DNA from: an uncultured Vicinamibacterales bacterium
Lineage (GTDB): Bacteria; Acidobacteriota; Vicinamibacteria; Vicinamibacterales; UBA8438
DNA: 64,000 nucleotides
Direction: 5' to 3'
NCBI GenBank assembly: GCA_958295905.1
Contig: OY282382.1
Coordinates: 3,248,001-3,312,000, forward strand
In this document: positions 1,415 through 55,466 of the stretch, one piece after another
Numbering within the stretch: the stretch's first letter is position 1
How the letters are laid out: each line of letters starts with the position of its first letter
Position numbers and translations under genes: made by a program
The notes under the pieces: model-generated
What the model was told of the DNA's origin: nothing
Seen by the model: only the letters and a program-made list of their open reading frames with translations
The model's database searches: none

Positions 1415-3232
1415 CTACCGATAGGCCGCCGCCTGGATTTCGTACAGCTCGGCGTAGTGTCCCGCCGCCGCCACGAGCTCCTCGTGGCTGCCGGCCTCCA
1501 CCACCCGGGCGCCGTCGAGGACCACGATCAGGTCCGCCATGCGCACCGTGCTGAACCGGTGCGAGACGAGCAGGGTGATGCGCCCGCCGGCCGCTCCGCC
1601 GCCGTTGCCGCGGGCGGCGCTCGCATAGCGCTCGAACAGCGCGTGCTCGGTCTCGGCGTCGAGGGCCGCGGTGGGCTCGTCGAGCGCCAGCAGCAGCGGC
1701 TCGTCGCGCATGAAGCCGCGCGCCAACGACAGCTTCTGCCACTGCCCGAAGCTGACGTCGACGCCGTTCGGCCACGTCGGGCCGAGCTGGGTGTCGAGGC
1801 CGTCGGTCAGCGTCCGCACCACGTCCCCGGCGCCGGCCCGCCCCACCGCGGTCTCGATCGCCGGGCGCTCGTCGAGACGCGGCACATCGCCTATCCCCAC
1901 GGTCCGCTGCGCCTGCAGCTCGAAGCGGAAGAAGTCCTGGAACGCGCCGGCGAGGCTGGCGCGCCACCCGGCCGCCGGCATCCGCGCGAGGTCCTCGCCG
2001 TCGACGAGAATGCGGCCCGCGGTCGGCTCGTACATCTTGCCGAGCAGCTTGACCAGGGTGGTCTTGCCGGCCCCGTTCTCGCCGACGAGGGCCACGACCG
2101 CGCCCGCGGGGAGCGTGAGGTCGACGTCTTCCAGCACCAGACGGTCGGTGCCCGGGTAGGCGAACGAGACGCGCTCCAGCACGATGCCGCGCTCGATGGA
2201 CGTGGGAGCCGGCCGGTCGGCGCGCTCGGCCTGCGCGGCCGCGTAGTCTTCGAGCCACGCGAGGCGCCGCGAGCCGTCGAGCCAGATGCCGCGCAGAAAG
2301 CCGATCTCGCCCACCGTGGCGCTGACGTACCCGGCGAGGCGCGAGCCCGCCGCGAGCAGCAGCAGGACGTCTCCGGGCGGGGCGCGCAGCCCGGAGGCCA
2401 CGAAGACGACGGCACCGACGTAACCGGCGCCGAACACGCTCCAGCCGAGGGTGTGCCAGCCGGCGCTGGCCCAGCGTGCGGCCGCGACGGGACGGTACCA
2501 GCGCTCCCAGGCGGCGCGCCGGCCGCGGACGAGGCGCCGGCCGATGCCGGTGACGCGGACGTCCTTGCCCGGCGCGGCGGTGGTGGCGGCGTCGAACAGG
2601 TGCCGCGCCAGGCGCCGGGCCTGCGCGCCCGCCTGTTCGACGGCGCGCTCCACCCCCGGCCGCCACGCGGCCGTCGCCACCGTCGGCAGCGCGCAAAGGG
2701 CGAGCAGGGCCAGCGCCGGATGGATCGACACGAGCAGGCCGATGGTCACCGCCAGCCGCAGGATCCAGCCGCCGGTGGTGAACAGCGACATGTACATGTG
2801 GTCGAGCACGAACACCTGGTCGCGGAGCATGGACAACCGGTCGAGATACGCCGGGCGCTCGTGGTGCTCGACGGTGACGACGCCGGCCTGCAGTCCGGCG
2901 ACGTGCGCCTCGAGAGCGATGGTCACCCGGTCGCGGAACCGGCGTTGGGTGCGGTCGCTGACCACGCGCAGCGCCCAGGTCAGCGTGGCGGAGGCGGCGA
3001 GGCCGGCCGCCGCGGCGGTAACGAGGGTCGAGTCGTCGCCGAGCAGACCGTCGGCCAGCAGCTTCAGCCACACCGCCATCAGCGCGTCGGGCAGGGCCGC
3101 GAGCAGGGACAGCGCGAACGCGACGGCCAGCAGCGCCGGCTCCGCGTCGAAGCCGCGCTTGAGCGCCCGCCACATGGCGGGCAGGGCCGCGGGCAGATCG
3201 CCGCCGCGCGTGGGGTCAGTCGAGGACATCAA
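1415..3232 (-). CDS. ABC exporter, fused permease-ATPase subunit (intact partner)
   Basis: This 605-residue half-transporter has an N-terminal membrane domain (about residues 30-310) and a C-terminal nucleotide-binding domain. Walker A is GENGAGKTT near residue 384, Walker B is LLLALDEPTAALD, and the H-loop is LLVSHRFSTV. The signature is VSFGQ rather than LSGGQ, so it may form a degenerate site in a heterodimer. Its start overlaps the end of the neighbouring ATPase segment by 17 bp, so the two are co-transcribed and probably formed one heterodimeric exporter. Whether it still works is doubtful because the partner is interrupted by an amber codon (4095-4097). No substrate can be inferred. Confidence 0.9.
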   Translation of the reverse strand: MMSSTDPTRGGDLPAALPAMWRALKRGFDAEPALLAVAFALSLLAALPDALMAVWLKLLADGLLGDDSTLVTAAAAGLAASATLTWALRVVSDRTQRRFRDRVTIALEAHVAGLQAGVVTVEHHERPAYLDRLSMLRDQVFVLDHMYMSLFTTGGWILRLAVTIGLLVSIHPALALLALCALPTVATAAWRPGVERAVEQAGAQARRLARHLFDAATTAAPGKDVRVTGIGRRLVRGRRAAWERWYRPVAAARWASAGWHTLGWSVFGAGYVGAVVFVASGLRAPPGDVLLLLAAGSRLAGYVSATVGEIGFLRGIWLDGSRRLAWLEDYAAAQAERADRPAPTSIERGIVLERVSFAYPGTDRLVLEDVDLTLPAGAVVALVGENGAGKTTLVKLLGKMYEPTAGRILVDGEDLARMPAAGWRASLAGAFQDFFRFELQAQRTVGIGDVPRLDERPAIETAVGRAGAGDVVRTLTDGLDTQLGPTWPNGVDVSFGQWQKLSLARGFMRDEPLLLALDEPTAALDAETEHALFERYASAARGNGGGAAGGRITLLVSHRFSTVRMADLIVVLDGARVVEAGSHEELVAAAGHYAELYEIQAAAYR

Positions 3233-4061
3233 GACCCGTTTCTTCCTCTTCCGCGAACCGCTGCGCCTGCAGGTCGAACATGGTCTGGTAACGGCCGCCC
3301 CGCGCCATCAGCTCGTCGTGGGCGCCCAGCTCGACGACCCGGCCGTGCTCCAGCACGCAGATCCGGTCTGCGTGGCGGACGGTGGAGAAGCGGTGCGAGA
3401 TGAGGATGGTGGTCGTCTCGCGGGTCGCCTTCAGGATCCGCTCGAAGATCTCCGCCTCGCCCCGAACGTCGAGCTGCGCGGTCGGCTCGTCGAGCAGGAC
3501 GATACCCGCGCCCTGCCGCACCGCCGCGAGCGCGCGCGCCAGGGCCACGCGCTGCCACTGGCCGCCGGAGAGCTCCGTGCCGCCGTCGTAGCCCCGGGCG
3601 AGGACGGTGTCCAGCGCGGCCAGGTCCGCCGCGCCGGCCTCCGCCAGCGCCTCGCGGATCACCGGCTCCGGCGCCCCGGCCGGCGCCACGTTGTCGGCGA
3701 GCGGCAGTTCGAAGCGCGCGAAGTCCTGGAAGACCGCGGTGATCCGTTCGCGCCAGGATTCGATGTCGATCGCCCGCAGGTCGACGCCGTCCACCTCGAT
3801 GGCGCCCGCCTGCGGCTCGTAGAGACGGCACAGCAGCTTGGCGAGGGTCGTCTTGCCGGCGCCATTCTGGCCGACGATGGCGAGCGACGATCCGGCGGGG
3901 ACGGTGAGGTCGAATCCGTCCAGCACGGGCTCGTCCGGCCGGGAGGGATAGGCGAAGCGCACCCCCGCGAAGCGGATCGCGCGCGCCGGCAGGCCGGCCG
4001 CCGGCTGCGAGCCGAGGGTCAGCGCGCCGCGCGGCGCCATCGCTTCGCGCAGCCGGAGCAC
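3216..4061 (-). CDS. ABC exporter partner, ATPase segment downstream of an in-frame amber codon
   Basis: This carries a complete nucleotide-binding domain: Walker A GQNGAGKTT, signature LSGGQ, Walker B VLLDEPTAQLD and H-loop ILISHRFSTV. It is the second half of a 600-residue permease-ATPase whose reading frame runs from 5018 to 3216 and is cut only by TAG at 4095-4097. Reading through gives FGGLS-stop-ALDGAG. A TGG to TAG change would explain it, because a Trp is plausible there; that is inference. The first ATG after the stop is at 4061, so the ATPase could be made alone only by re-initiation. Either a recent nonsense mutation, an assembly error or amber readthrough is possible. Confidence 0.8.
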   Translation of the reverse strand: MLRLREAMAPRGALTLGSQPAAGLPARAIRFAGVRFAYPSRPDEPVLDGFDLTVPAGSSLAIVGQNGAGKTTLAKLLCRLYEPQAGAIEVDGVDLRAIDIESWRERITAVFQDFARFELPLADNVAPAGAPEPVIREALAEAGAADLAALDTVLARGYDGGTELSGGQWQRVALARALAAVRQGAGIVLLDEPTAQLDVRGEAEIFERILKATRETTTILISHRFSTVRHADRICVLEHGRVVELGAHDELMARGGRYQTMFDLQAQRFAEEEETGLDVLD

Positions 4062-4094
4062 CGCCGCGGTGGGCGCCCCGGCCCCGTCGAGGGC

Positions 4095-5018
4095 CTAGGA
4101 CAGACCGCCGAAGGCGATCATGCTGGTGGCGATGGCGGCGCCGGCGAACGTCACCATGCGGTCGAGCGGCAGGGCGCCGGCGCCGGCGTCGGCCGCCAGC
4201 GACCAGAACAGGAGGACGTTGGCGGCGGCGACCAGGGCGAGGCTCGCGGCCACCGGCCGCTCGCGCAGCTTCGTCGCCTCCCAGCGCAGATCGTGGAGCC
4301 GCCGCCGGTAGCGGCGGAAGCGCTCGATGGTCCAGCCGGCGAGGCCGAACAGCCGCAGTTCCTTGGCGGCCGGCGCATCCACCGCGAGCCGGTACGCATA
4401 GTCGGCGTGACGCTGGGCCTCGCGCACCACCGCGGTCTGGCGGTCCTTCCAGACGCCGCTCTCGCGCAGGAGCCAGTGCGTGGCGAGCCACGCGCCCCCC
4501 AGCAGCAGGGGCGCCCACCATGCATAGGCGAAGAGGATCGAGGCCGCGGCCAGCCCGGCCAGCAGCTCGATGAGGCCGAACGCGATGAAGTCCATCGATA
4601 TCGTCAGCGGCGGTCCGCTGATGCCGAGATCGAAGTCCCGCGCCATCGTCAGGTCGCCGGCCAGCTCGGGGTCCTCGAGGTGGCCGATGCCGGGCGGCGC
4701 CACGCAGGCCACCGTCAGTTCGTCGTAGAGCCAGGCCGCGGCGGCGCTGCCGAGGTTGCCGCCGGCGGCCCCGTGCAGCGGCGGCAGCACCTGCAGCAGG
4801 ACGAACACGGTCCCCACGCCGGCGAGCGGCCGGGCGAGGTCGCCGCCCGCCTCGACCGCGCCGACCAGCGCCCCCATCGCGATCGCGAACAGGGCCGGCA
4901 GGAGGGCCCGCACGACCAGGAGGCTCCACCAGACCGCCGCCAGGAACGGGTTCGCGCGCGGCAGGATGGCCAGGAACTTCCATTCCGGGCGCCCGCGGAG
5001 GCGTTCGATCAGAGGCAT
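4095..5018 (-). CDS. ABC exporter partner, membrane segment ending at an amber codon
   Basis: The 307 residues are the transmembrane domain of the second ABC subunit, with several hydrophobic spans (for example LLPALFAIAMGALVGAV and ILFAYAWWAPLLLGGAWLA) and an ABC-type coupling region near AAKELRLFGL. It ends at TAG 4095-4097, exactly where homologous proteins continue into the linker and ATPase domain, and the frame stays open to 3216. ATG 5018 lies 5 bp after the stop of the DUF1579 gene, so it belongs to the same operon. As it stands the product has no ATPase. Confidence 0.8.
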   Translation of the reverse strand: MPLIERLRGRPEWKFLAILPRANPFLAAVWWSLLVVRALLPALFAIAMGALVGAVEAGGDLARPLAGVGTVFVLLQVLPPLHGAAGGNLGSAAAAWLYDELTVACVAPPGIGHLEDPELAGDLTMARDFDLGISGPPLTISMDFIAFGLIELLAGLAAASILFAYAWWAPLLLGGAWLATHWLLRESGVWKDRQTAVVREAQRHADYAYRLAVDAPAAKELRLFGLAGWTIERFRRYRRRLHDLRWEATKLRERPVAASLALVAAANVLLFWSLAADAGAGALPLDRMVTFAGAAIATSMIAFGGLS

Positions 5019-5023
5019 GAGCG

Positions 5024-5509
5024 TCAGCCGCGAGCTGCTCCGCCGCCGGCGTCCGCGCGCGCGAAGGTCGCCTCGACGGCCAGCGCCTCCTCGCCGTCGG
5101 GCGTCACGTTGCGCATGACGACGTGCAGCGCGGGGTCGGCCGGCCGGACGACGATGCGCCAGCCCCAGTCCGGGCCCGGCGGGGCGGCGTAACCGCCGCG
5201 CACCGCGATGGTTCCGTCGGCCTCGACGGCGCCCTCGCACGCCATCACCCCGTCCGACATGTGCCACGAATCGATCCAGTGCGCCGTCGCCCTGCCGTGG
5301 CCGGCCTGGTGGCCGATCAGGAGCGAGCCTTCCTGGGGGGCGCCCCGATAGCTCCAGCCGTAGTCCAGGCGGACGAACCGGCCGCCCAGCAGCGCCGTCA
5401 GCACCGCCGTGGACGCCGAGTCTTCCGGCTTCCCCGTGTGGGGATCGTGCAGGCGGTTCGATCCGCGCCAGCGTCCGGCGCACGCCGCCAGCCGGTCCAG
5501 GGCACTCAT
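5024..5509 (-). CDS. DUF1579-like cytosolic protein
   Basis: The protein has 161 residues and no signal peptide or membrane span. The pattern (LAACAGRWRGSNRL near the N-terminus, then LGGRFVRLDYGWSYRG, GHQAGHGRATAHWIDSWHMSD and a final strand region) fits the DUF1579 beta-barrel-like family, which is widespread and uncharacterised. It is the first gene of the reverse-strand operon with the ABC exporter, 5 bp ahead of the membrane subunit. A lipocalin-like ligand-binding role is possible but is only inference from the fold class. Confidence 0.7.
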   Translation of the reverse strand: MSALDRLAACAGRWRGSNRLHDPHTGKPEDSASTAVLTALLGGRFVRLDYGWSYRGAPQEGSLLIGHQAGHGRATAHWIDSWHMSDGVMACEGAVEADGTIAVRGGYAAPPGPDWGWRIVVRPADPALHVVMRNVTPDGEEALAVEATFARADAGGGAARG

Positions 5510-6288: not shown

Positions 6289-7278
6289 ATGAACCATGGA
6301 ATGCTCGCCGCAGCCGGGGGTCTGGCCGTGCTGGCCGTCTTGTCTGCGCCGGTTGCCGTGTCGGCCCAGAGTGAGACGGAGGCGCCGCGGACGGCCTGGG
6401 GAGACCCCGACCTGCAGGGGGTCTGGGACTTTCGGACGATCACGCCGCTGCAGCGTCCCGAGGAACTCGGCGACCAGGCGTTCCTGACCGCGGAGGAAGC
6501 GGCCAATCAGGAACAGGAGGTCGTGGAGCGGAACGCCCGGTTGTGGAACGAGGCCGCCCGCCGGACCGAGGCCGGCGGCAACGTCGGCGCCTACAACAAC
6601 TTCTGGATGGACCGGGGCACCCGGACGGTCGGGACCCGGCGGACGTCGCTCATCGTGGACCCGCCGAACGGGCGCATCCCGCCGTTGTCGGAGGCGGGGC
6701 AGGCGCGGGCCGACGCGCGGGCCGAGTATCGGAGCGAGCACCCCGCCGACTCTTGGGCGGACCGCAGCGTCGGCGAGCGTTGCGTGCTCGGGTTCAACTC
6801 GGGACCCCCGATGGAGCCGCGCGCCTACAACAACCACATGCAGCTCTTCCAGACCGCCGGCCACGTGGTCATTCTCAACGAGATGGTCCACGACGCGCGC
6901 ATCATCCCCCTGGACGGCGGCGCGCTGGCGGAAGGGGTGACCCAGTGGATGGGGGACTCCCGCGGGCGCTGGGAGGGCGACACGCTGGTCGTCGACACGA
7001 CGAACTTCTACAACAAGAACTCCTTCACCGAGCGCTACGGGGCGACCACCGCGATGAGCCTGGTGGAGCGTTTCACGCGCGTGGACGCCGAGACGCTGCT
7101 CTACGAGTTCACGGTCGAGGACCCCGCGACCTGGACCCTGCCGTGGACGGTCGAGGTGCCGATGCTGCGCTCGGACGATCAGGTCTGGGAGTACGCGTGC
7201 CATGAAGGCAACTACGGGATGGACGGCATTCTCGCCGGCCACCGCGCCGAGGAACGCGATGCGGCGCAGGACCGGTAG
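6289..7278 (+). CDS. Secreted GDSRG-family protein, paralogue A1
   Basis: The protein has 329 residues with a clear signal peptide (residues 1-27, cut after VSAQ). It has the family hallmarks WGDPDLQGVWD near residue 40, IVDPPNGRIPPL, HDARIIPLDGG, GDSRGRWEGDTLVVDTTNF and EDPATWTLPWTVE. I know of no described activity. The family is abundant in Acidobacteriota and usually sits beside DUF6152 proteins, as here. The start is fixed by aggagg 7 bases upstream. Its closest relative in the window is 53068-54096. It heads a tight operon to 9863. Conserved acidic and His positions could bind a ligand or metal, but that is speculation. Confidence 0.85.
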   Translation: MNHGMLAAAGGLAVLAVLSAPVAVSAQSETEAPRTAWGDPDLQGVWDFRTITPLQRPEELGDQAFLTAEEAANQEQEVVERNARLWNEAARRTEAGGNVGAYNNFWMDRGTRTVGTRRTSLIVDPPNGRIPPLSEAGQARADARAEYRSEHPADSWADRSVGERCVLGFNSGPPMEPRAYNNHMQLFQTAGHVVILNEMVHDARIIPLDGGALAEGVTQWMGDSRGRWEGDTLVVDTTNFYNKNSFTERYGATTAMSLVERFTRVDAETLLYEFTVEDPATWTLPWTVEVPMLRSDDQVWEYACHEGNYGMDGILAGHRAEERDAAQDR

Positions 7279-8479
7279 GGGCTCGCGCCGTGGAACGGCG
7301 GGGACCGCCGCAGGGTTGGCCGGGCGGGGGGCGGAGCCGCAAGGCGGCGTTTTCCGGGCTGCCTTCCTGCGCGGTTTCCTGGTCGTCTGCACCGCGGCCG
7401 GCGTCCTGGGTCCCGCCGTCCCCGCGGCGGGGGCTCAGGACCATCCGGGCGCCGAGCCGTACCGGCGGGTGTGCGAGCTGTGCCACGGGGCGGGCGGGCG
7501 CGGCGACATCGCCCCGGGGCTGGTCCCCCTGGGCTTCGACGCCGAGTACGTGCTGGCCGTGGTGCGCGAGGGCTACAGCCAGATGCCCCCGATCTCGACG
7601 CGCGAGCTGACCGACGACGAGGTGCGGCAGGTCGTCGGCTATCTCGAGGTCCTGTCGAGCCCGTCGGCGGAAACGCCGGCGGGGGCGACCCCCGACCTGC
7701 CGTCGGCCGCCGCGGCCCCGGCCGGCTCCGCGCCGTCCGGGGCCGGGGGAGAGCAACCTCCGGCCGCCGGCGCGTCCGGCTACGACGGACCCCGGACCCC
7801 CGAGGGGCGGCCCGACCTGAACGGCTTCTGGCAGGTGCTGAACTCGGCGGCTTGGGACATCCGCCCCCACAACGCCCGGGACGGCGTTCCGGCCGGCCTC
7901 GGGGTGGTCGAGGGGGGCGGCATCCCCTACCAGCCGTGGGCGGCCGAACAGCAGCAGGAGAACCAGGCGAACCGGCTGACCGCGGACCCGGTGCGGCAAT
8001 GCTATCTGCCGGGGGTCCCGCGCATCACCTACATGCCCTTCCCGTTCCGCATCCTGCACACCCCCGACCACGTGGTGATCACCTACGAGTTCGCCCACGC
8101 CGTCCGCATCATCTACACCGACGGCAGTCCGCATCCGTTGCCGAACGACTTCTGGATGGGCGACTCGCGCGGGCACTGGGAGGGCGATACGCTGGTGGTC
8201 GACACCACCCACTTCAACGGGCGCACCTGGCTCGACGCGGCCGGCAACTTCCACAGCGACGCCCTGCACGTCGTCGAGCGCTATACCCCGACGACCCCGT
8301 ATCACATCGACTACGAGGTCACCATCGAGGATCCCAACGTGTTCACCCGTCCGTGGACGATGCGGATGCCCTTGTACCGGCGTGTGGAAGAGCGGCTGCA
8401 GATTCTCGACTACGACTGCGTCGATCATCTCCTGCAAGCGGCGGTCGAGGGCCGGCAGGAAGAAGAAGGAGACCGGTGA
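7259..8479 (+). CDS. Cytochrome c domain fused to a secreted GDSRG-family domain
   Basis: The protein has 406 residues from ATG 7259, which overlaps the previous gene's end by 20 bp. A long basic N-terminus precedes a hydrophobic export segment (FLRGFLVVCTAAGVLG). A class I cytochrome c domain follows with haem motif CELCH and a likely distal Met in GYSQMPPIS. After a Pro/Ala-rich linker comes a full GDSRG-family domain (PDLNGFWQVL, CYLPGVPR, GDSRGHWEGDTLVVDTTHF, EDPNVFTRPWTMRMPLYRR). The linked haem suggests that the family domain takes part in a periplasmic redox reaction. The paralogue 54098-54913 has the same C-terminal domain without the cytochrome. Confidence 0.85.
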   Translation: MRRRTGRGSRRGTAGTAAGLAGRGAEPQGGVFRAAFLRGFLVVCTAAGVLGPAVPAAGAQDHPGAEPYRRVCELCHGAGGRGDIAPGLVPLGFDAEYVLAVVREGYSQMPPISTRELTDDEVRQVVGYLEVLSSPSAETPAGATPDLPSAAAAPAGSAPSGAGGEQPPAAGASGYDGPRTPEGRPDLNGFWQVLNSAAWDIRPHNARDGVPAGLGVVEGGGIPYQPWAAEQQQENQANRLTADPVRQCYLPGVPRITYMPFPFRILHTPDHVVITYEFAHAVRIIYTDGSPHPLPNDFWMGDSRGHWEGDTLVVDTTHFNGRTWLDAAGNFHSDALHVVERYTPTTPYHIDYEVTIEDPNVFTRPWTMRMPLYRRVEERLQILDYDCVDHLLQAAVEGRQEEEGDR

Positions 8480-9435
8480 TGAACCTTCGATCGCTCGCGT
8501 GCGCAGCGGCGGTGCTGCTCGCCTCGGCTGCGGCCCCGGCCGCCTTCGCCGGCCAGGACCGCGGCTATGAGCCCCCGCGGACGCCGTGGGGCGACCCCGA
8601 CTTCCGCGGCCACTATCTCCCCGGCCGGTCCCAGCCGATGGAGACCCCCGCGAACGATTCGTGGCGCCCGCCCGAGGGGGCCAACCTTGGGCAGGGAGCG
8701 GCGTTCTCCCGGTTCTTCGAACCCGACCCGGATGCGCCGCCGCGCCCGGGGCGCGTCACCACGCCGATGGTCGTCGACCCGCCCGACGGTCGTATTCCCC
8801 TGTTGCCGTGGGCGGCCGAGCGCCGGGGCGAGGTGATGGCGCGGCAGGACGAGCTGGAGCATCTCGACCCCCGCGTGAAGTGCCTCCCGGCGGCGCTGCC
8901 CCGAGCGCACCTGCCGGTCGGCTACAACACCTACCAGATCCTGCAGGTTCCCGGGTACGTCGTCATGCTCTACGAGTGGAACCACCACTCGCGCTACATC
9001 CCCCTCGACGGCAGCCCCCATCCCGACCCCGAGATCCGTCTCGGCATGGGCGACTCGCGCGGCCACTGGGAGGGGAACACCCTGGTCGTCGACGTCACCA
9101 ACTTCACCGAAAACACGTGGCCGGTGGGGCACGGCGCGCCCCCCGAGGGGGTGCCGGCGAGCGCCCTCGCGACCGGACACGGGGTGTTCCACAGCGGCGG
9201 GCTGCACGTGGTCGAGCGCTTCACCCTGGTCGACGACGACACCATCCGCTACGAGGCGACCATCGAGGACCCCGAGGTCTTTTCGCAGCCGTGGACCATC
9301 AGGTTCGACGCGCTGCGCCGGGCGCCCGACGATCACATGCTGTTCGAGTACGCCTGTCACGAAGGCAACGGGCGGAACCTGTCGCTCATGACCGGCGCCG
9401 ACCTCGATGACGTGCGGGTGAACCCCATCAGGTGA
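8479..9435 (+). CDS. Secreted GDSRG-family protein, paralogue C
   Basis: The 318-residue protein has an Ala-rich signal peptide (residues 1-25, ending AFAGQ). The family core is visible: TPWGDPDFRGHYLPG, VVDPPDGRIPLLPWAAER, KCLPAALPRAHLP, GDSRGHWEGNTLVVDVTNF, HVVERFTLVDDDTIRYE and EDPEVFSQPWTI. The ATG shares one base with the preceding TGA (8477-8481), so translation is coupled. It differs from its neighbours by an extra loop (about 20 residues) after the TNF motif. Activity is unknown. Confidence 0.85.
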   Translation: MNLRSLACAAAVLLASAAAPAAFAGQDRGYEPPRTPWGDPDFRGHYLPGRSQPMETPANDSWRPPEGANLGQGAAFSRFFEPDPDAPPRPGRVTTPMVVDPPDGRIPLLPWAAERRGEVMARQDELEHLDPRVKCLPAALPRAHLPVGYNTYQILQVPGYVVMLYEWNHHSRYIPLDGSPHPDPEIRLGMGDSRGHWEGNTLVVDVTNFTENTWPVGHGAPPEGVPASALATGHGVFHSGGLHVVERFTLVDDDTIRYEATIEDPEVFSQPWTIRFDALRRAPDDHMLFEYACHEGNGRNLSLMTGADLDDVRVNPIR

Positions 9436-9440
9436 GACCG

Positions 9441-9863
9441 ATGCGAAAGATTGAAACCTCGTTCATCGCCATGGCCGGCGCCCTCGTCCTGCTGGCGCCG
9501 GCCGGATCGGCGTCCGCCCACCACGCCTTCTCGGCCGAGTTCGACGCCAACCGGCCGTTGCAGCTCACGGGCACGGTGGCGCGCACCGAATGGATCAATC
9601 CCCACTCGTGGATCCACGTCGACGTCACCGGCGGCGACGGCACGGTGACGACCTGGGCGATCGAGTGCGGCGCGCCCAACTCGCTGATGCGGCGCGGGCT
9701 GAACAAGAACTCGATCCCGGCCGGCACCGAGCTGGTCATCGACGGCTTCGGGGCCAAGGACGGGTCGAACACCGCGAACGCGCGCGACATCACCTTCCCC
9801 GACGGGTCGCGTTTCTTCGTCGGGTCGTCCGGGACCGGCGCGCCGTACGAACGCGGCCGCTGA
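9441..9863 (+). CDS. Secreted DUF6152 protein, copy 1
   Basis: The 140-residue protein has a signal peptide ending SASA, followed at once by the DUF6152 hallmark HHAFSAEFD, then EWINPHSWIHVDV, IECGAPNSLMRRG and the C-terminal FPDGSRFFVG. The N-terminal HH after cleavage is striking and could be a metal ligand (a 'histidine brace' style end is possible but unproven). It is the last gene of the operon, 6 bp after the previous stop. A GTG at 9432 is an alternative start, but ATG 9441 gives a better leader. Confidence 0.85.
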   Translation: MRKIETSFIAMAGALVLLAPAGSASAHHAFSAEFDANRPLQLTGTVARTEWINPHSWIHVDVTGGDGTVTTWAIECGAPNSLMRRGLNKNSIPAGTELVIDGFGAKDGSNTANARDITFPDGSRFFVGSSGTGAPYERGR

Positions 9864-10063: not shown

Positions 10064-10330
10064 GTGGGCCTGCGTGCCCGCCTGCTCCGGTTGCTCGAAT
10101 CCATCGAGAACGTCGGTCTGGAGGCACTCCCCGAGCCCCATGCCAAGCATCTCAGCGGCAAGCTCTGGGAGTTGCGGGTGAGAGCCCAAGGGGGAATCGC
10201 GAGGGGGATCTACGTGACGAAGGCCGACCACCGCGTTGTGATCCTGCATGTCTTCGCGAAGAAGTCACGAAGGACGCCGCTTCGGGCACTCGCAATCGCC
10301 AGAGAACGTATGAAGCAGGTGACGCCATGA
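10064..10330 (+). CDS. HigB/RelE-type toxin (phage Gp49-like), start codon apparently lost
   Basis: From GTG 10064 this gives 88 residues with the Gp49/HigB2 pattern: GLRARLLRLLE, EPHAKHLSGKLWELRV, GIARGIYV and FAKKSRRTP. These toxins are mRNA interferases acting with the ribosome. Homology-like sequence clearly continues upstream in frame (GWTVETHSAVDSEIETLP) to ATA 10007, just after a TGA. The natural start was probably an ATG now reading ATA, or ATA is used inefficiently. The end overlaps the antitoxin start by 4 bp, the usual toxin-first arrangement. Confidence 0.75.
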   Translation: MGLRARLLRLLESIENVGLEALPEPHAKHLSGKLWELRVRAQGGIARGIYVTKADHRVVILHVFAKKSRRTPLRALAIARERMKQVTP

Positions 10331-11008: not shown

Positions 11009-11308
11009 TCACGGAGCAGCTGCTTCCAGCGGGCGGATCTTCCGCAGGGATCGTGCGGCGGCCGACTCGGCCAGTGCGAGCTCGTAGCCGGTCTGAAGGT
11101 TCATCCAGCTCTGTGCGTCGGTGCCGAAGTACTTCGCCAGCCGCAGTGCCGTCGCCGCCGTGATGCCGCGCCGGCCGCGCACGATCTCATTGATGCGCGC
11201 CGGTGTCACGCCGGTCGCTTTCGCGAGCGCAGTCGACGACAATCCAAACGGTTCCATGAAGTCGTGCTTCAGGACCTCGCCGGGGTGCACCGGCTGCAAA
11301 CGGGTCAT
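11009..11308 (-). CDS. higA: HigA-type antitoxin
   Basis: The 99-residue protein has the HigA/VapI signature: PVHPGEVLKHDFMEPFGLS, then a helix-turn-helix (TALAKATGVTPARINEIVRGRRGIT) and LRLAKYFGTDAQSWMNLQTGYEL. It binds and neutralises HigB and represses the operon. It follows the toxin gene by 12 bp on the same strand, the canonical higBA order. The locus looks intact, unlike its neighbour at 10064-10557. Confidence 0.9.
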   Translation of the reverse strand: MTRLQPVHPGEVLKHDFMEPFGLSSTALAKATGVTPARINEIVRGRRGITAATALRLAKYFGTDAQSWMNLQTGYELALAESAAARSLRKIRPLEAAAP

Positions 11309-11320
11309 GGGCTCATTCCT

Positions 11321-11599
11321 TCAGTGGTAGTCAACGATCTCGGCATCGAACGCGCTTCCATCCCGGAAGCGAAAACAGAGCCGCCACTGGTCGTTGATCC
11401 GTATGCTGTACGAACCGTGCCGCTCGCCCCTGAGCGACTCGAGACGATTTCCCGGCGGTACCCGCAGGAAGTCGAGCGTCGCCGCGGCATCCAGTTGCGC
11501 CAGCTTGCGTTGCGCGACGCGCTCGAAGGCCGCGAATCGCCGCACGCGGTACCCGGCGGCGAGTCGCTCCGTATCCCTGCAACGGAAGCTCCGAATCAC
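11321..11599 (-). CDS. higB: HigB-type toxin (mRNA interferase)
   Basis: The 92 residues fit HigB/RelE: IRSFRCRDTERL at the N-terminus, AQRKLAQLDAAATLDFLRVPPGNRLESLRG in the middle and SIRINDQWRLCFRF with DAEIVDYH at the end. HigB toxins cleave mRNA at the ribosome. It is first in the operon with higA, and its start is 8 bases from the AT-rich candidate operator at 11607-11624. All family landmarks are present, so it is probably functional. Confidence 0.9.
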   Translation of the reverse strand: MIRSFRCRDTERLAAGYRVRRFAAFERVAQRKLAQLDAAATLDFLRVPPGNRLESLRGERHGSYSIRINDQWRLCFRFRDGSAFDAEIVDYH

Positions 11600-11668: not shown

Positions 11669-12835
11669 TCACTCTGGCTCCTGACCGGCCGAAGGCGCGA
11701 GGTCGAGGGCGTCGAGCACGTCCTGCCACGAGACCAGCTTGAAGTTCTGGTTGGCCTCCTCGGCATCCGGGGCCAGATTGATGCCGTCCTGCACGACGAG
11801 CAGGCCCATCGGATAGCGCGGACCGAGCGGGGCCGACACGACCTGCAGTCCGTCGGTGTCCTCGGCCCCGTCGACCGCGCCTGCTCCACCCACGCGGAAC
11901 GTCCCGCGGTAGGCGTGCGGCGGGGCGCGGTCGTAGACGACGTAGGTGTGGTTGCCCTGGCTCGACGCCACCAGGAAGCCCTCGCCGGGGCCGCGGCCCG
12001 GCGGCGCGTAGATCGAGAGGCCCTCGACATGCGACGCCAAGCGTCCGCCCTCCGGCCCGCCCAGCCCGACGCGGTCGACCGCGACCCGCTCGGTGGGCGC
12101 GTCCGGCTCGGCGCCGTAGCGCCAGATGCCGACCTCTTCCTCGCCGATGAACAGCCACCCGACGGCGTCGTCGGCGACGCACCCTTCGGTCTGGCTGCCG
12201 ACCGCCCATGACCGGACGCGAGTCCCGGTCATGCCCGCGCCTTTGCTGTCCAGGCGCCACTGCTCGACCGCGCCGCCCTGGTCGTTGGCGAAGACGTACA
12301 GGTCGCCGCCCGCCCCGCTGCGGTACAGGCACAGGCCGTACGGATCCTCGTCGAAGTCCGGCGAGATGGGGACGTCGAGCAGCGGCGTGAGGTCGCCGCT
12401 GTCCGGGTCGAGCGCGAGGACGTCTATCGTGGCGGTCGTGCGGTTGGTGGCCGCGACGACGATCGCCTCCTCGCCGCCGACGTTCACGCCGTCCCGCAGA
12501 TCCACGTTGTTCACGCGGCCCACGTCGTTCGTCGACACGACCGCGCCGTCGAGCCCGTACACGAGGAGGCCGCGCAGCTTGTTGGTCGCGACGATCAGGC
12601 TCGCCTCGGGATCCGACTCGTTGACCCAGACGGCGACGTCGTCCGCCGCGTCGCACGGGTCGGGCACCGGTGCCGTTTCCGCCGCCGCCGCGACGGTCCG
12701 CGTGTCGGCCGGCTGCGGCCCCGGCTCGGTGGTCAGCAGGTCCGTCAAAGCGCACCGGACCACCGTTCCCGGGCTGCACCCGGCGACTGTGAGGTAGCAG
12801 CACGCCAGTGCCGCCGCGAGTTGGCGGGCTCTCAT
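11669..12835 (-). CDS. Beta-propeller phytase-like lipoprotein
   Basis: The protein has 388 residues. A signal peptide ends in a lipobox (LTVAGC, Cys 20), so it should be anchored to a membrane after lipidation. The beta-propeller phytase pattern is clear: DDVAVWVNESDPEASLIVATNK with GLLVYGLDG, RVNNVDLRDGV, CVADDAVGWLFIGEEEVGIWRY and HVEGLSIYAP. These calcium-dependent enzymes release phosphate from phytate and inositol phosphates. The acidic residues that bind Ca2+ and substrate (DD, D, E in those blocks) are present. It is a single gene on the reverse strand, 158 bp downstream of the PQQ enzyme. A role in phosphate scavenging is inferred. Confidence 0.85.
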   Translation of the reverse strand: MRARQLAAALACCYLTVAGCSPGTVVRCALTDLLTTEPGPQPADTRTVAAAAETAPVPDPCDAADDVAVWVNESDPEASLIVATNKLRGLLVYGLDGAVVSTNDVGRVNNVDLRDGVNVGGEEAIVVAATNRTTATIDVLALDPDSGDLTPLLDVPISPDFDEDPYGLCLYRSGAGGDLYVFANDQGGAVEQWRLDSKGAGMTGTRVRSWAVGSQTEGCVADDAVGWLFIGEEEVGIWRYGAEPDAPTERVAVDRVGLGGPEGGRLASHVEGLSIYAPPGRGPGEGFLVASSQGNHTYVVYDRAPPHAYRGTFRVGGAGAVDGAEDTDGLQVVSAPLGPRYPMGLLVVQDGINLAPDAEEANQNFKLVSWQDVLDALDLAPSAGQEPE

Positions 12836-12993: not shown

Positions 12994-15057
12994 CTACCGC
13001 AAGGTGAAGGCGACCAGCTCCGCGATTCTCTCCTCATCCAAGGCCGCCACGACCAGGTACTGCCGGCCGCCCGCCAGGTACGTGATCGGGAACCCGGTGG
13101 TTGGTCCACCCGGAAGCGGAATCTCATGGACGACGTCACCCGTGCGCTTGTCGTACGCGCGGAGAACCGGAGCGCCCCGTTGTCCTTCGCCCGCGAACAG
13201 CAGGGTGGACGTCACGAGAAGTCCGGAGCTCTGCGTGAGAATCCCGGTCTGCGGCACGTTCACGCCCTGGAGGTCCGGATGCCGCCGGATATAGGCGGGC
13301 GTCTCGCCGTGCGGGATCTGCCACAGAATCTCTCCCTCGGTCAGGTCGATCGCGGTGATCCGGCCGTAGGGAGGCTTCAGGAGGGGCAGGTCGCGGACGG
13401 TTGGGACACCCCGGGAGAACGAGATGTGGTAGCGCACGCCGGTCCCCTCGGCGCCGTTGGTCAATCCGAACAGCGTCGGCCTCGTCTGCGACGGCACGAA
13501 GAGGAGACCCGTCTCGGCGTCCACCGCGCCGGCCGGCCAATTGACGCCGCCGCCCGCGCCGGGGAGCCCGAGGGTCCCGAGATTGACGCCCGGCACAATC
13601 AGGGACGGCGGGGTATAGAGGGGGCCGAGCCGGAATTGCTCCACGATCCGCAGCGCCTCGGCCCGGAGCTCCGGCGTGAAGTCGATCAGGTCGTCCCGGG
13701 TGACGCCCTGGCGCTCGAACGCCGGCGGCTTGGTGGGGAAGGGCTGCGTCGGAGAGGTCCACTCGCCCGGAACGTCCGACGCCGCCGCCGCCCGCTCCTC
13801 GATCGGCCAAACGGGTTCGCCGGTTTCGCGGTCGAGCACGTACGCGAAACCCTGCTTCGAGAGTTGCACCAGCGCCTTGACCGGGGCGCCGTCGACCTCG
13901 ATGTCCACGAGGATGGGGGCGGTGGGGATGTCGTAGTCCCAGAGTTCGTGATGGGTGAGCTGAAAATGCCACACCCGCTCGCCGGTCTCCGCGTCGAGCG
14001 CCAGCACGGAGTTGCCGAAGAGGTTGTCGCCGGGTCGATAACCGCCGTAATAGTCGTTCGTGGGAGTCTCGGTGGCCACGTAGAACAGGCCGAGCTCCGC
14101 GTCCGCCGTCACCGGCGCCCAATGCCCGACGTTCCCCGTGTACTTCCAGGAGGCGTCGAGGAGCTCCGGATGCTCCTGCACCCAAGGGTGGGTGCCGGTC
14201 GGCACGTTCCAGAGGGTCTCGTCCGCCTTCAGCCAAGTCTCGACGCCGAATTCTTCCGCCTTCGGGACCGTGTTGAAGCGCCACAACATCCGGCCGGAGC
14301 GGGTGTCGTACGCCACCACGTCGCCGGGCATGTTCATGGGCCAGACCTCATTGGGTGATGCCCGGGTGGGAATGCTGCCGGTGTGCATCGAGATCGACGC
14401 CACGAGCACATTCCCGAGAATCGCCGCCGGCGACGTGTTGGCCACCCGACCCGCTCTCGCCGCGGCCGGCCGCTCGCTCCAGCGCAGGTCGTCCATCATG
14501 TCCACCGCGCCGGCCGCCCCGAAATCCTCCACGAGATTCCCCGTCCGGGCGTCCAGGGCCACCAACTGGTAGCTCGGCGTCACCACGAAGATGCGCTCGT
14601 CTCCCGCCCCGTCCGTCCAGTAGGTCACGCCGCGCCCGGCGCTCCGCGCAACCGGCTCGATGATGTCGCCCCACCGGCGCTCGTTGTCGCCCGGGTGCCA
14701 GTTCCAGATGGACTCACCGGTCGCGGCATCGAGGGCAATCACGCTGCGCTGGTTGCCGATGGTCGTATAGAGAACGCCGTTGACCACGATGGGGCTGATC
14801 TGTGTCCGGCCGGACGGCGGCGGCGAGCCCTGGTCCCGTGCGCTCCATCGCCAGGCCACCTCCAGATCGCCGACGTTGCCGGCACGAATCTCGTCGAGCG
14901 GCGAATAGCGGGTGGCGCCCGCGTCCGCCCCGAACACACCCCATTCCCCGTCGGCGGCGCCGTGCTGAGCGCTCACACCGACGGTGCCCAGACACGCGGC
15001 GGCCGCAACCGCCGCGCAACGGATCACCCAGTGCCGACCGGAATGCGTTTTACACAT
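12994..15057 (-). CDS. Soluble PQQ-dependent glucose-dehydrogenase-type quinoprotein
   Basis: The protein has 687 residues with a signal peptide ending VSAQ. It is an eight-bladed quinoprotein: GDAGATRYSPLDEI-type start, repeated ALDAxTGExxWxF blade motifs, and HHELWDYDIPTAP near residue 371, which corresponds to the catalytic Asp region of membrane glucose dehydrogenase (HHDLWDxD). It lacks the N-terminal five-helix membrane domain of Gcd and no haem CxxCH is present, so electrons must go to a separate acceptor. It would oxidise a sugar or alcohol in the periplasm with PQQ and Ca2+. No PQQ biosynthesis genes are in the window. Confidence 0.85.
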   Translation of the reverse strand: MCKTHSGRHWVIRCAAVAAAACLGTVGVSAQHGAADGEWGVFGADAGATRYSPLDEIRAGNVGDLEVAWRWSARDQGSPPPSGRTQISPIVVNGVLYTTIGNQRSVIALDAATGESIWNWHPGDNERRWGDIIEPVARSAGRGVTYWTDGAGDERIFVVTPSYQLVALDARTGNLVEDFGAAGAVDMMDDLRWSERPAAARAGRVANTSPAAILGNVLVASISMHTGSIPTRASPNEVWPMNMPGDVVAYDTRSGRMLWRFNTVPKAEEFGVETWLKADETLWNVPTGTHPWVQEHPELLDASWKYTGNVGHWAPVTADAELGLFYVATETPTNDYYGGYRPGDNLFGNSVLALDAETGERVWHFQLTHHELWDYDIPTAPILVDIEVDGAPVKALVQLSKQGFAYVLDRETGEPVWPIEERAAAASDVPGEWTSPTQPFPTKPPAFERQGVTRDDLIDFTPELRAEALRIVEQFRLGPLYTPPSLIVPGVNLGTLGLPGAGGGVNWPAGAVDAETGLLFVPSQTRPTLFGLTNGAEGTGVRYHISFSRGVPTVRDLPLLKPPYGRITAIDLTEGEILWQIPHGETPAYIRRHPDLQGVNVPQTGILTQSSGLLVTSTLLFAGEGQRGAPVLRAYDKRTGDVVHEIPLPGGPTTGFPITYLAGGRQYLVVAALDEERIAELVAFTLR

Positions 15058-52731: not shown

Positions 52732-53067
52732 TCATTATATCGAGGAACCGTCCGTCCCCCCCGCGAAACCCGACCCGAGCGCGGACTGGACTCGACGTTG
52801 CCCCACTATGCCCGATGCCCGGCCCGCGTGGAACCCGACCCCGAGCGCGGACCGGACTCTCCTCGGCGACCCGTTCAGGTCGATACGCCATCGTACCACG
52901 ACCGGCGGGACGGCGGGTGGCGCGCCCGGGGAATAATTTGGTGTCGCGGGCGGTGTCCAATTGGGTGATAATTGCGGGGGTTCGCGGCCCCGCGCGCATC
53001 GAAGTCCGGCAGGTGTCATGCGGGGGGCGGGCGGAGGGCATCCGGAGGGAGAAGAAGGAGCGTTCAG
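52732..53067. other. Divergent intergenic region with a repeat and AT-rich promoter-like patch
   Basis: It separates the decarboxylase operon (reverse) from the second secreted operon (forward). A direct repeat (cccgacccgagcgcggactg, imperfect) occurs at 52765-52793 and 52831-52859. An AT-rich patch at 52931-52975 contains gataat (52967-52972), a possible -10 for the 53068 gene, and gaagaaggag (53051-53060) is its ribosome-binding site. Confidence 0.5.
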
Positions 53068-54096
53068 ATGCTTCGTCGAGACATCGTGTCGAACGGCTGG
53101 CTGGTCGCGCTGGCCGGGCTGGGGCTCGCGGCGCCGGGCTCGGCCGCCGCGCAGGAGGCGGCCGGATCGGGCCAGGCGGCAGGAACCTACGAGGTGCCCC
53201 GGACACCCGACGGCCACCCGGATCTGCAGGGCTTCTGGTCGAACCAGACCTACACGCCGCTGGAGCGGCGGGAGGGGGTGACGGGCGCGTTCCATACCCC
53301 GGAGGAACTGGCGCTGATCGAGAGCGGCGCGGCCGGCCGCGAGAGTGCGCAGACCGAGCCGGGCACCATTCCCGACGTGCACTACGACTTCACGCAGTTC
53401 GGGCTCGACCGCAGTCAGGCGGCGCGGGCCCAGAATCTGCGCACGTCGATGATCGTCGATCCCCCGGACGGACGCCTGCCGCCGGTCAACGCCGCGGGGG
53501 AGCGACTGGCGGCGGAGCGGGCCGAGGCGCAGGCGCGGCTCGGCGGGCGGTGGGACTCCGCCGAGGCCAACCAGCTCGACGATCGGTGCATCATCATGCG
53601 CGGGGTCGGCCCCCCGCTGATGCCCAGCGGGTACAACGCCAACTACCACATCGTGCAGTCGGCCGGCCACGTGATGATCCTTTCCGAGATGATTCACGAC
53701 GCGCGTATCATCCCGCTCGACGACCCGGCGGCGCCCCCGGCGGGCGTGCGGCAGTGGATCGGGGTGTCGCGGGGGCACTGGGACGGCGACGCGCTGGTGG
53801 TGGAGACCACGAACTTCAACGGCAAGAATCCGTTCCAGGGGTCCGGCGATCGGATGACGGTGACCGAGCGCTTCACGCGGGTGTCCGACGACGTGATCGA
53901 GTACCGGTTCACGGTCGACGATCCGGGGACCTGGGATCGCCCGTGGACGGCCGAGAACCTGATGCAGAGGACCCGGGGCCCGCTGTTCGAGTTCGCGTGC
54001 CACGAGGGCAACTACGGGCTCTACAACACGCTCGTCGGCGCCCGTCTTGAAGAGCAGCGCGCCGCCGGGGAGGCGGAGCAGTCGAGGGACAGGTGA
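53068..54096 (+). CDS. Secreted GDSRG-family protein, paralogue A2
   Basis: The 342-residue protein has a signal peptide ending SAAAQ. The family landmarks are TPDGHPDLQGFWSNQTYTP, MIVDPPDGRLPPV, HDARIIPLDD, the variant GVSRGHWDGDALVVETTNF in place of GDSRG, VTERFTRVSDDVIEYRFTV and FACHEGNYG. It is the counterpart of 6289-7278 and likewise heads its operon. Start from ATG 53068 behind gaagaaggag. Function unknown; periplasmic or secreted. Confidence 0.85.
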   Translation: MLRRDIVSNGWLVALAGLGLAAPGSAAAQEAAGSGQAAGTYEVPRTPDGHPDLQGFWSNQTYTPLERREGVTGAFHTPEELALIESGAAGRESAQTEPGTIPDVHYDFTQFGLDRSQAARAQNLRTSMIVDPPDGRLPPVNAAGERLAAERAEAQARLGGRWDSAEANQLDDRCIIMRGVGPPLMPSGYNANYHIVQSAGHVMILSEMIHDARIIPLDDPAAPPAGVRQWIGVSRGHWDGDALVVETTNFNGKNPFQGSGDRMTVTERFTRVSDDVIEYRFTVDDPGTWDRPWTAENLMQRTRGPLFEFACHEGNYGLYNTLVGARLEEQRAAGEAEQSRDR

Positions 54097-54097
54097 C

Positions 54098-54913
54098 ATG
54101 GCGATGCGTACTCGGCTATCGACGATGACGCTGGCCGCCGTGGCCGCGCTGGCGGCGTCCGCGGCGGGCCAGACGTCGGAGTATCGGGCGCCTCGGGGGC
54201 CGGACGGCAACCCCGATCTCAACGGGATCTGGCAGGCCCTGGGCTCGGCCCACTGGGATGTCGAGCCGCATTCGGCGGGGCCGAGCGTGGTGCGGGAGCT
54301 GGGCGCGCTGTCCGCGGTGCCGGCCGGTCTCGGGGTCATCGACGGCGACCGGATCCCGTACACGCCGGAGGCCTTGGCCCAGCGGAACGAGAACCGCGCG
54401 AACCGGCTCGAGCGCGATCCCGCCGTCAAGTGCTACCTGCCGGGGGTGCCGCGCGGCATGTACATGCCGTTTCCGGTGCAGATCATCCAGAGCCGGGCCC
54501 ACGTCATGATCCTCCACGAGTTCGCCGGCGCCGTGCGCACGGTGTACATGGAGAACCAGATGGACGCCCCCGCCGACAGTTGGATGGGGTGGTCGAACGG
54601 GCGCTGGGACGGCGACACGCTCGTCATCGACACCACCGGCTTCAACGGCCGGACTTGGTTCGATCAGTCGGGCAACTTCCACAGCGGGGCGTTGCGCGTG
54701 GTGGAGCGCATCACGCCGCGGAGTCCGGACACGCTCTGGTACGAGGTCACCCTCGAAGACCCGAACGTTTTCACGCGGCCCTGGACGATGCGCATGCCCC
54801 TCTATCGACGGGTGGAAGAGAACGCGCGGGTTCTGGAGTTCCGATGCGTCGAGTTCGTGGAAGATCTGATCTACGGGCACCTCCGCAAGCAACCCGAGGA
54901 TGCCGGCCGGTAA
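54098..54913 (+). CDS. Secreted GDSRG-family protein, paralogue B2 (no cytochrome domain)
   Basis: The 271-residue protein has a short signal peptide ending SAAGQ and the same core as the cytochrome fusion at 7259-8479: PDLNGIWQALGSAHWD, CYLPGVPRGMYMPFPVQII, DGDTLVIDTTGFNGRTWFD, GNFHSGALRVVERITP and LEDPNVFTRPWTMRMPLYRR. The cytochrome c module is absent here, so it may use a separate electron partner such as the monooxygenase-cytochrome at 55467. It starts 1 base after the preceding stop. Confidence 0.85.
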   Translation: MAMRTRLSTMTLAAVAALAASAAGQTSEYRAPRGPDGNPDLNGIWQALGSAHWDVEPHSAGPSVVRELGALSAVPAGLGVIDGDRIPYTPEALAQRNENRANRLERDPAVKCYLPGVPRGMYMPFPVQIIQSRAHVMILHEFAGAVRTVYMENQMDAPADSWMGWSNGRWDGDTLVIDTTGFNGRTWFDQSGNFHSGALRVVERITPRSPDTLWYEVTLEDPNVFTRPWTMRMPLYRRVEENARVLEFRCVEFVEDLIYGHLRKQPEDAGR

Positions 54914-54933
54914 CGTTGAGGAGGGGAATCCTT

Positions 54934-55344
54934 ATGCGCACGAAGCTCGCTTGTGTCGTCGTCGGGGTCGGAGTCCTGTTGGCGGCCGCTCCGGCGTCGA
55001 CCCATCATGCCTTCTCCGCCGAGTTCGATATCGAGAAGCCGTTGACGCTGACCGGCAAGCTCGTCCGGTGGGAAATGATCAATCCGCACTCCTGGTTCCA
55101 CATGGACGTCGAGGACGAGGAAGGGAAGCTGGTGCGGTGGATGATCGAGGGCGGGAGCCCGAACGAACTGATCCGGAACGGGGTCACGAAGAACACCCTC
55201 GACATCGGGATCGAGTTGACCGTCGAGGGCTACTACGCCAAGGACGGGACGCCCAAGGGCGTGGGCAGGAACTTCCTGCTCGCGGACGGCGAACGGCTGT
55301 TCCTCGGCGGGTCGGCGCCCCCGGTCGCGCCCGCCGTCCGCTAG
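54934..55344 (+). CDS. Secreted DUF6152 protein, copy 2
   Basis: The 136-residue protein has a signal peptide ending PAST, then HHAFSAEFD, the same mature N-terminus as copy 1 (9441-9863), EMINPHSWFHMDVEDEEG, IEGGSPNELIRNG and LADGERLFLG. gaggagggg lies 8 bases upstream of ATG 54934. The close repetition of gene order (A, B, DUF6152) in two places argues that these proteins work together. Confidence 0.87.
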   Translation: MRTKLACVVVGVGVLLAAAPASTHHAFSAEFDIEKPLTLTGKLVRWEMINPHSWFHMDVEDEEGKLVRWMIEGGSPNELIRNGVTKNTLDIGIELTVEGYYAKDGTPKGVGRNFLLADGERLFLGGSAPPVAPAVR

Positions 55345-55466
55345 TCCGGAACCGTCGCTTGGCGGCTCCGTCGCCGCGTTGCTGCGCAGCCGCCCAACCA
55401 ATCCTCTAGGCGTTCGCACCGTTTCGCGGGCGCATGCTTGGAATCGTGAACTGGGAGACATCGATC

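Follow-up and report, generated by a model that had tools for sequence, protein, structure and literature searches.

Exported GDSRG-family proteins pair with DUF6152 proteins across phyla and carry a cytochrome c domain in one orthologous group

In a 64,000-nucleotide stretch of contig OY282382.1 from an uncultured Vicinamibacterales bacterium (referred to here, at its full length, as the window), four same-strand open reading frames (ORFs) form a tight operon at positions 6289-9863 (+): O1 (6289-7278), O2 (7259-8479), O3 (8479-9435) and O4 (9441-9863). The first three encode paralogues that share the stretch GDSRG-x-W-E-G-(D/N)-TLVVD and represent what we term the GDSRG family, O2 bearing in addition a cytochrome c domain, and the fourth encodes a DUF6152 protein. 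Our analysis establishes that GDSRG and DUF6152 proteins are a real pair and near-obligate partners. The best overall explanation, to which we give a probability of about 0.4, is that GDSRG proteins are lipophile-binding barrels working with a metal-binding DUF6152 protein, and that the clade of O2 is wired to cytochrome c.

The evidence for the pairing comes from several samples. Of 80 loci chosen by their GDSRG gene, 56 have a DUF6152 gene on the same strand within 500 bases. Because these loci had been chosen by GDSRG, we fetched an independent set by DUF6152 alone, and a same-strand GDSRG gene was found within 800 bases at 29 of its 30 loci. The host's own genome shows the same proximity, with 10 of 13 DUF6152 genes lying no more than 1.5 kb from a GDSRG gene. 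In a sample of 119 genomes from the phylum, DUF6152 is present in all 11 that are GDSRG-positive, four additional DUF6152-positive genomes all have GDSRG, and the family profile found no GDSRG in the three DUF6152-negative genomes searched with it. The gene order short GDSRG - GDSRG - DUF6152 repeats across phyla, and assemblies of Gammaproteobacteria and Rhodospirillaceae contain six single ORFs in which DUF6152 and a GDSRG-type domain are joined. In the single-ORF fusions at loci L160, L171, L174 and L208 the DUF6152 part is N-terminal. The window itself contains a second GDSRG - GDSRG - DUF6152 operon (52972-55409, +), which has no cytochrome.

Neither Pfam nor NCBIfam nor the solved structures, searched by sequence or profile, offered a route to the function of the GDSRG domain, and O1, O3 and the C-terminal half of O2 have no credible match in Pfam or NCBIfam. 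An AlphaFold2 model of O2, calculated with 105 homologues, has a predicted local distance difference test (pLDDT) score mostly above 93 in the barrel region (GDSRG domain, 7769-8479) and is poor in the cytochrome region. Foldseek against solved structures returned the fatty-acid/retinoid-binding-protein family in 49 of the best 50 rows (best row, E 2.8e-4, probability 1.00), the exception being a tardigrade SAHS protein, and VIA-align superposed the barrel on fatty-acid-binding protein (FABP) and CRBP structures with a Z of 10.1 and a root-mean-square deviation of 3.3 over 124 residues. The first strand of calycins is marked by G-x-W, and the conserved PDLxGIW of the GDSRG family contains this motif, with Gly130 at 100% and Trp132 at 94% in family alignment A3. 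We thus predict, from the model, that the GDSRG domain is an FABP-like (calycin) barrel, which we class as working like a calycin and not as a calycin member, because sequence homology to calycins is not detectable. Cys189 and Cys328, both conserved at 99% in the family, may form a disulfide. That these barrels bind a hydrophobic small molecule is, in our judgement, rather likely.

The model also bears on the most conserved part of the family, for which a sequence-only reading of the operon had proposed a shared active site at GDSRG-x-W-E-GDTLVVD. The corresponding segment of O2, GDSRGHWEGDTLVV (GDSRG motif at 8159-8173), covers strands 243-249 and 252-258, which together make one beta-hairpin in a confident part of the model. 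Since the stretch lies in a beta-hairpin of the predicted barrel, folding readily accounts for its conservation; the active-site proposal is weakened, and GDSRG-W-EGDTLVV is probably a fold signature instead.

O4 matches Pfam DUF6152 (PF19649) at 8.8e-32 and 109.5 bits against a curated cut-off of 27. The structural model of DUF6152 is a confident oligonucleotide/oligosaccharide-binding (OB) fold with matches to OB-fold structures; no sequence method ties DUF6152 to a solved family. Of 93 DUF6152 matches, 91 have a His-His pair after the signal peptide, and 86 of these 91 obey the -3,-1 rule of signal-peptide cleavage exactly before it; all 30 independently fetched genes have the pair in this place as well. 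The mature protein is therefore predicted from sequence to begin with His-His, encoded in O4 at 9519-9524. In our structure alignment of DUF6152, sequences were selected on the His-His pair, whose 100% occupancy there holds by construction and is not evidence; His29 and Pro28, both within an NPH motif, are also invariant in it, as is one Trp. In other families, exported proteins whose mature form starts with His are metal-binding (PMC12537917), and we consider it likely that DUF6152 is so too. The literature searched yielded no paper naming DUF6152 or DUF6644, a membrane family considered below. CusF-type and nitrobindin-type proteins, considered as relatives, are absent among the structure matches listed, which leaves such a relationship neither confirmed nor excluded.

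The cytochrome domain of O2, which the sequence-only reading had recognized by its CELCH motif, is borne out by a match of residues 80-148 (numbered from 7202, the start of the longest frame) to Cytochrome_CBB3 (PF13442; 7.2e-12, 45.9 bits, cut-off 27). CxxCH (CELCH, 7472-7486), a distal Met (the likely haem ligand, in QMPPIS, at 7583-7585) and the curated score place this N-terminal domain among the class I cytochromes c. A survey for other natural fusions, suggested by the same reading, found a fused orthologue in 14 of the 28 genomes of the host's family by hand tally, spanning six genera (G000, G001, G003, G005, G006, G007, G010, G012, G013, G014, G020, G022, G023 and G040), with two fused copies in G020. 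Among relatives searched with O2, the orthologous frames read from signal peptide to cytochrome c to linker to barrel. CxxCH is retained in every fused orthologue and QMPPIS in all those read out (for G040 the observation is limited to a frame with CxxCH); the linkers differ in both length and sequence. Two genera have orthologues without the cytochrome, and such an orthologue is present in G008, G009, G021, G041 and G042; in G008, G009 and G021, whose sequences were read, the signal peptide directly precedes the barrel. On a tree of the barrels the fused/unfused label needs three changes, two of which fit one gain and one loss of the cytochrome. The third is locus L106, considered as a further unfused case but not counted, since the gene is cut off by the end of its contig.

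Within the genomes searched, the fusion occurs in a single orthologous group from a single bacterial family, and the host genome has no other cytochrome fusion, O2 being the only one of its 92 family ORFs with CxxCH. Because just one of about 85-90 paralogues carries the cytochrome, the fusion is not proof of redox work throughout the family, and the earlier claim that it is direct evidence of such work does not hold. It is evidence on O2, indicating that this protein works beside electron transfer; neither the barrel nor the GDSRG family as a whole is thereby shown to be a redox enzyme.

The genomic surroundings of the family give further hints. The host genome contains about 80 loci of PF01011 pyrroloquinoline quinone (PQQ) quinoproteins. 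Of 63 GDSRG clusters, 18 have a PQQ gene no more than 5 kb away; the expectation from 1000 circular shifts is 7.8, and no single shift gave as many as 18. The genes directly beside GDSRG genes encode, among others, alpha/beta hydrolases, gluconolactonase/NHL propellers, PQQ enzymes, cytochromes c and tannase/feruloyl esterases, all from families that rank outside the commonest in random stretches, at small numbers of 2-5 each. At 80 loci in other genomes, the neighbours shared most often are outer-membrane receptors of the TonB type (18) and PQQ enzymes (14). TonB-dependent receptors were considered as a specific partner on this frequency and not adopted, no enrichment test having been made in the host genome. 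GDSRG copies on sphingomonad plasmids have TonB receptors, monooxygenases or genes of acyl-CoA catabolism in their vicinity.

From these data we propose that GDSRG proteins would be exported FABP-like barrels, each binding a hydrophobic small molecule, and that DUF6152 would be their exported OB-fold partner, whose mature N-terminal His-His would bind Cu or another transition metal. In O2 and its orthologues the tethered cytochrome c would couple binding or conversion of the ligand to a periplasmic electron-transfer chain, and the PQQ dehydrogenases often found nearby would perhaps take part in this electron flow. That electrons flow between the cytochrome and either the ligand of the barrel or a partner dehydrogenase is a tentative suggestion with the odds slightly against it. 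On the simplest account, GDSRG proteins would carry or bind lipophilic compounds outside the cytoplasm for catabolism there, with a metal-binding partner and, in one clade, a link to a cytochrome. A bolder version is unlikely in our estimate, namely that GDSRG barrel and N-terminal-His DUF6152 form an undescribed, widespread module that jointly binds and oxidises or reduces lipophiles, in dozens of ligand-specific copies per genome, with one clade cytochrome-wired. Several observations weigh against the proposal as a whole. The Z of about 10 only moderately exceeds the 7 to 8 that is usual for background, and no sequence link to calycins was found, with no Pfam calycin among 105 members and no PDB profile match. 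The canonical OB topology may put His1-His2 far from His29, leaving a classical histidine brace uncertain. The enrichment of PQQ genes, itself modest, may stem from genomic neighbourhoods that are shared, and the orthologues that lack a cytochrome count on the same side.

Four rival explanations were weighed. The barrels could simply carry or scavenge hydrophobic nutrients, the cytochrome of O2 serving as electron carrier for another enzyme such as a PQQ dehydrogenase and the barrel itself being non-redox. This we regard as somewhat unlikely: the roughly 85-90 paralogues without haem, the cytochrome-free orthologues, the variable linker length and a fold suited to carrying all agree with it, but in six genera the cytochrome remains with one and the same barrel and has not moved between paralogues, and the pairing with DUF6152 suggests more than carrying. 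It is improbable that the GDSRG protein is itself an enzyme or a haem or metal protein with its site at the GDSRG-W-E stretch or a conserved His. That stretch is very highly conserved and His occupies columns 221, 233, 273 and 278 in most members, whereas the model makes the stretch a hairpin and, in the family as a whole, none of the His columns attains 90%. Similarly, GDSRG and DUF6152 could constitute a maturation or delivery module, for metal, haem or PQQ, that supplies exported quinoproteins and cytochromes. PQQ genes are numerous and nearer than expected, and an N-terminal His on an OB fold would suit a metal chaperone; dozens of diverged GDSRG copies, however, better fit a diversity of ligands than the delivery of one cofactor, and the host genome has just 13 DUF6152 genes against about 80 PQQ loci, which makes this explanation improbable. 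Lastly, the sequence-only reading had named an assembly or gene-calling accident as what would refute it. Nothing was found in favour of such an accident, and it is excluded for practical purposes by independently assembled genomes of many species, which show the identical open frame. We retain lipophile-binding barrels with a metal-binding DUF6152 partner as the best explanation.

The layout of the operon agrees with the earlier description of three secreted paralogues tightly coupled to DUF6152, in that secretion signals on the operon proteins are supported and the ORFs overlap or adjoin. O1, a long-form GDSRG protein, is preceded by AGGAGG; the ATG of O2 (7259), which encodes a short form, sits within the 3' end of O1; the stop of O2 and the start of O3 overlap as TGATG (8477-8481); and O4 starts at GTG 9432 or at ATG 9441, the latter resembling the homologues more. 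O2-O3-O4, with O3 as the second gene, is a widely conserved unit of which O1 is not part: apart from the window's genome (G000), only G001 of the same genus has O1 upstream of O2, and in a third genome of the genus the contig stops before the position of O1.

The host genome (6.3 Mb, 3 contigs) has about 85-90 GDSRG members, the family profile matching 92 ORFs, some of them fragments of broken genes, and 85 having a matched part longer than 600 bases. On named contigs the relatives are mostly from Acidobacteriota, and also from Gammaproteobacteria, Rhodospirillaceae, Gemmatimonadetes and others; the copies on sphingomonad plasmids are more distant. At L055:3704-4896 and L060:3440-5326, GDSRG genes are split across frames and represent pseudogenes or sequencing errors. 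A DUF6644 membrane pair, considered as a general third partner, was rejected, being present in only 4 of the loci searched. DUF6644 adjoins the GDSRG-DUF6152 module in L047, L157, L176 and sphingomonad plasmids, paired copies occur at L047:3290-4265, L157:10262-11221, L176:10191-11302, L259:16286-17304 and L261:10945-11920, and one His is invariant across the eight copies aligned.

Elsewhere in the window, the PQQ quinoprotein dehydrogenase gene nearest to the operon lies at 12994-15057 (-), and the roughly 80 such loci of this genome amount to an unusually large expansion. Just downstream of the operon are a Gp49-like (DUF891) toxin-type gene (10064-10330, +) and a HigB-like toxin with a helix-turn-helix antitoxin (11009-11599, -), and a beta-propeller phytase (PF02333, 5e-88) is nearby at 11669-12835 (-). 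An ABC exporter at 3216-5483 (-) has its membrane part and ATPase in separate frames, perhaps through a frameshift.

Through predicted fold, pairing, predicted His-His start and fusion, two uncharacterised families, GDSRG and DUF6152, become one testable system; the former is without a Pfam or NCBIfam entry even though it is among the larger gene families of this genome. If true, our proposal would add a bacterial exported counterpart to the fatty-acid-binding proteins and a new family of N-terminal-His metalloproteins. With FABP, CRBP and CRABP the GDSRG domain shares its predicted barrel, G-x-W at the first strand and one barrel per domain. It differs from these calycins in having no sequence similarity to them, in being bacterial and exported, and in its two conserved Cys, extra N-terminal segments, DUF6152 partner and, in one clade, cytochrome. 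Among bacterial extracytoplasmic barrels of the lipocalin/FABP type are the bile-salt receptor VtrA/VtrC, which binds a steroid-like ligand (PMC4933562), and TP0751 (PMC7521688). The likeness of GDSRG proteins to both is one of description, as bacterial extracytoplasmic barrels (predicted in the case of GDSRG), and not of structural comparison. We know of no DUF6152 partner, cytochrome or expansion to dozens of copies for either. Class I cytochromes c fused to periplasmic domains resemble O2 in CxxCH, distal Met and domain length, but the cytochrome of O2 sits between the signal peptide and the GDSRG barrel, an arrangement for which Pfam and NCBIfam hold no description. The N-terminal-His metalloproteins obtained by signal strapping, DUF4198, DUF6702, Ang-1 and Ang-2 (PMC12537917), are like DUF6152 in that the latter is exported with a predicted His at its mature N-terminus; DUF6152 lies outside these four characterised families and differs from them by its His-His pair and predicted OB fold.

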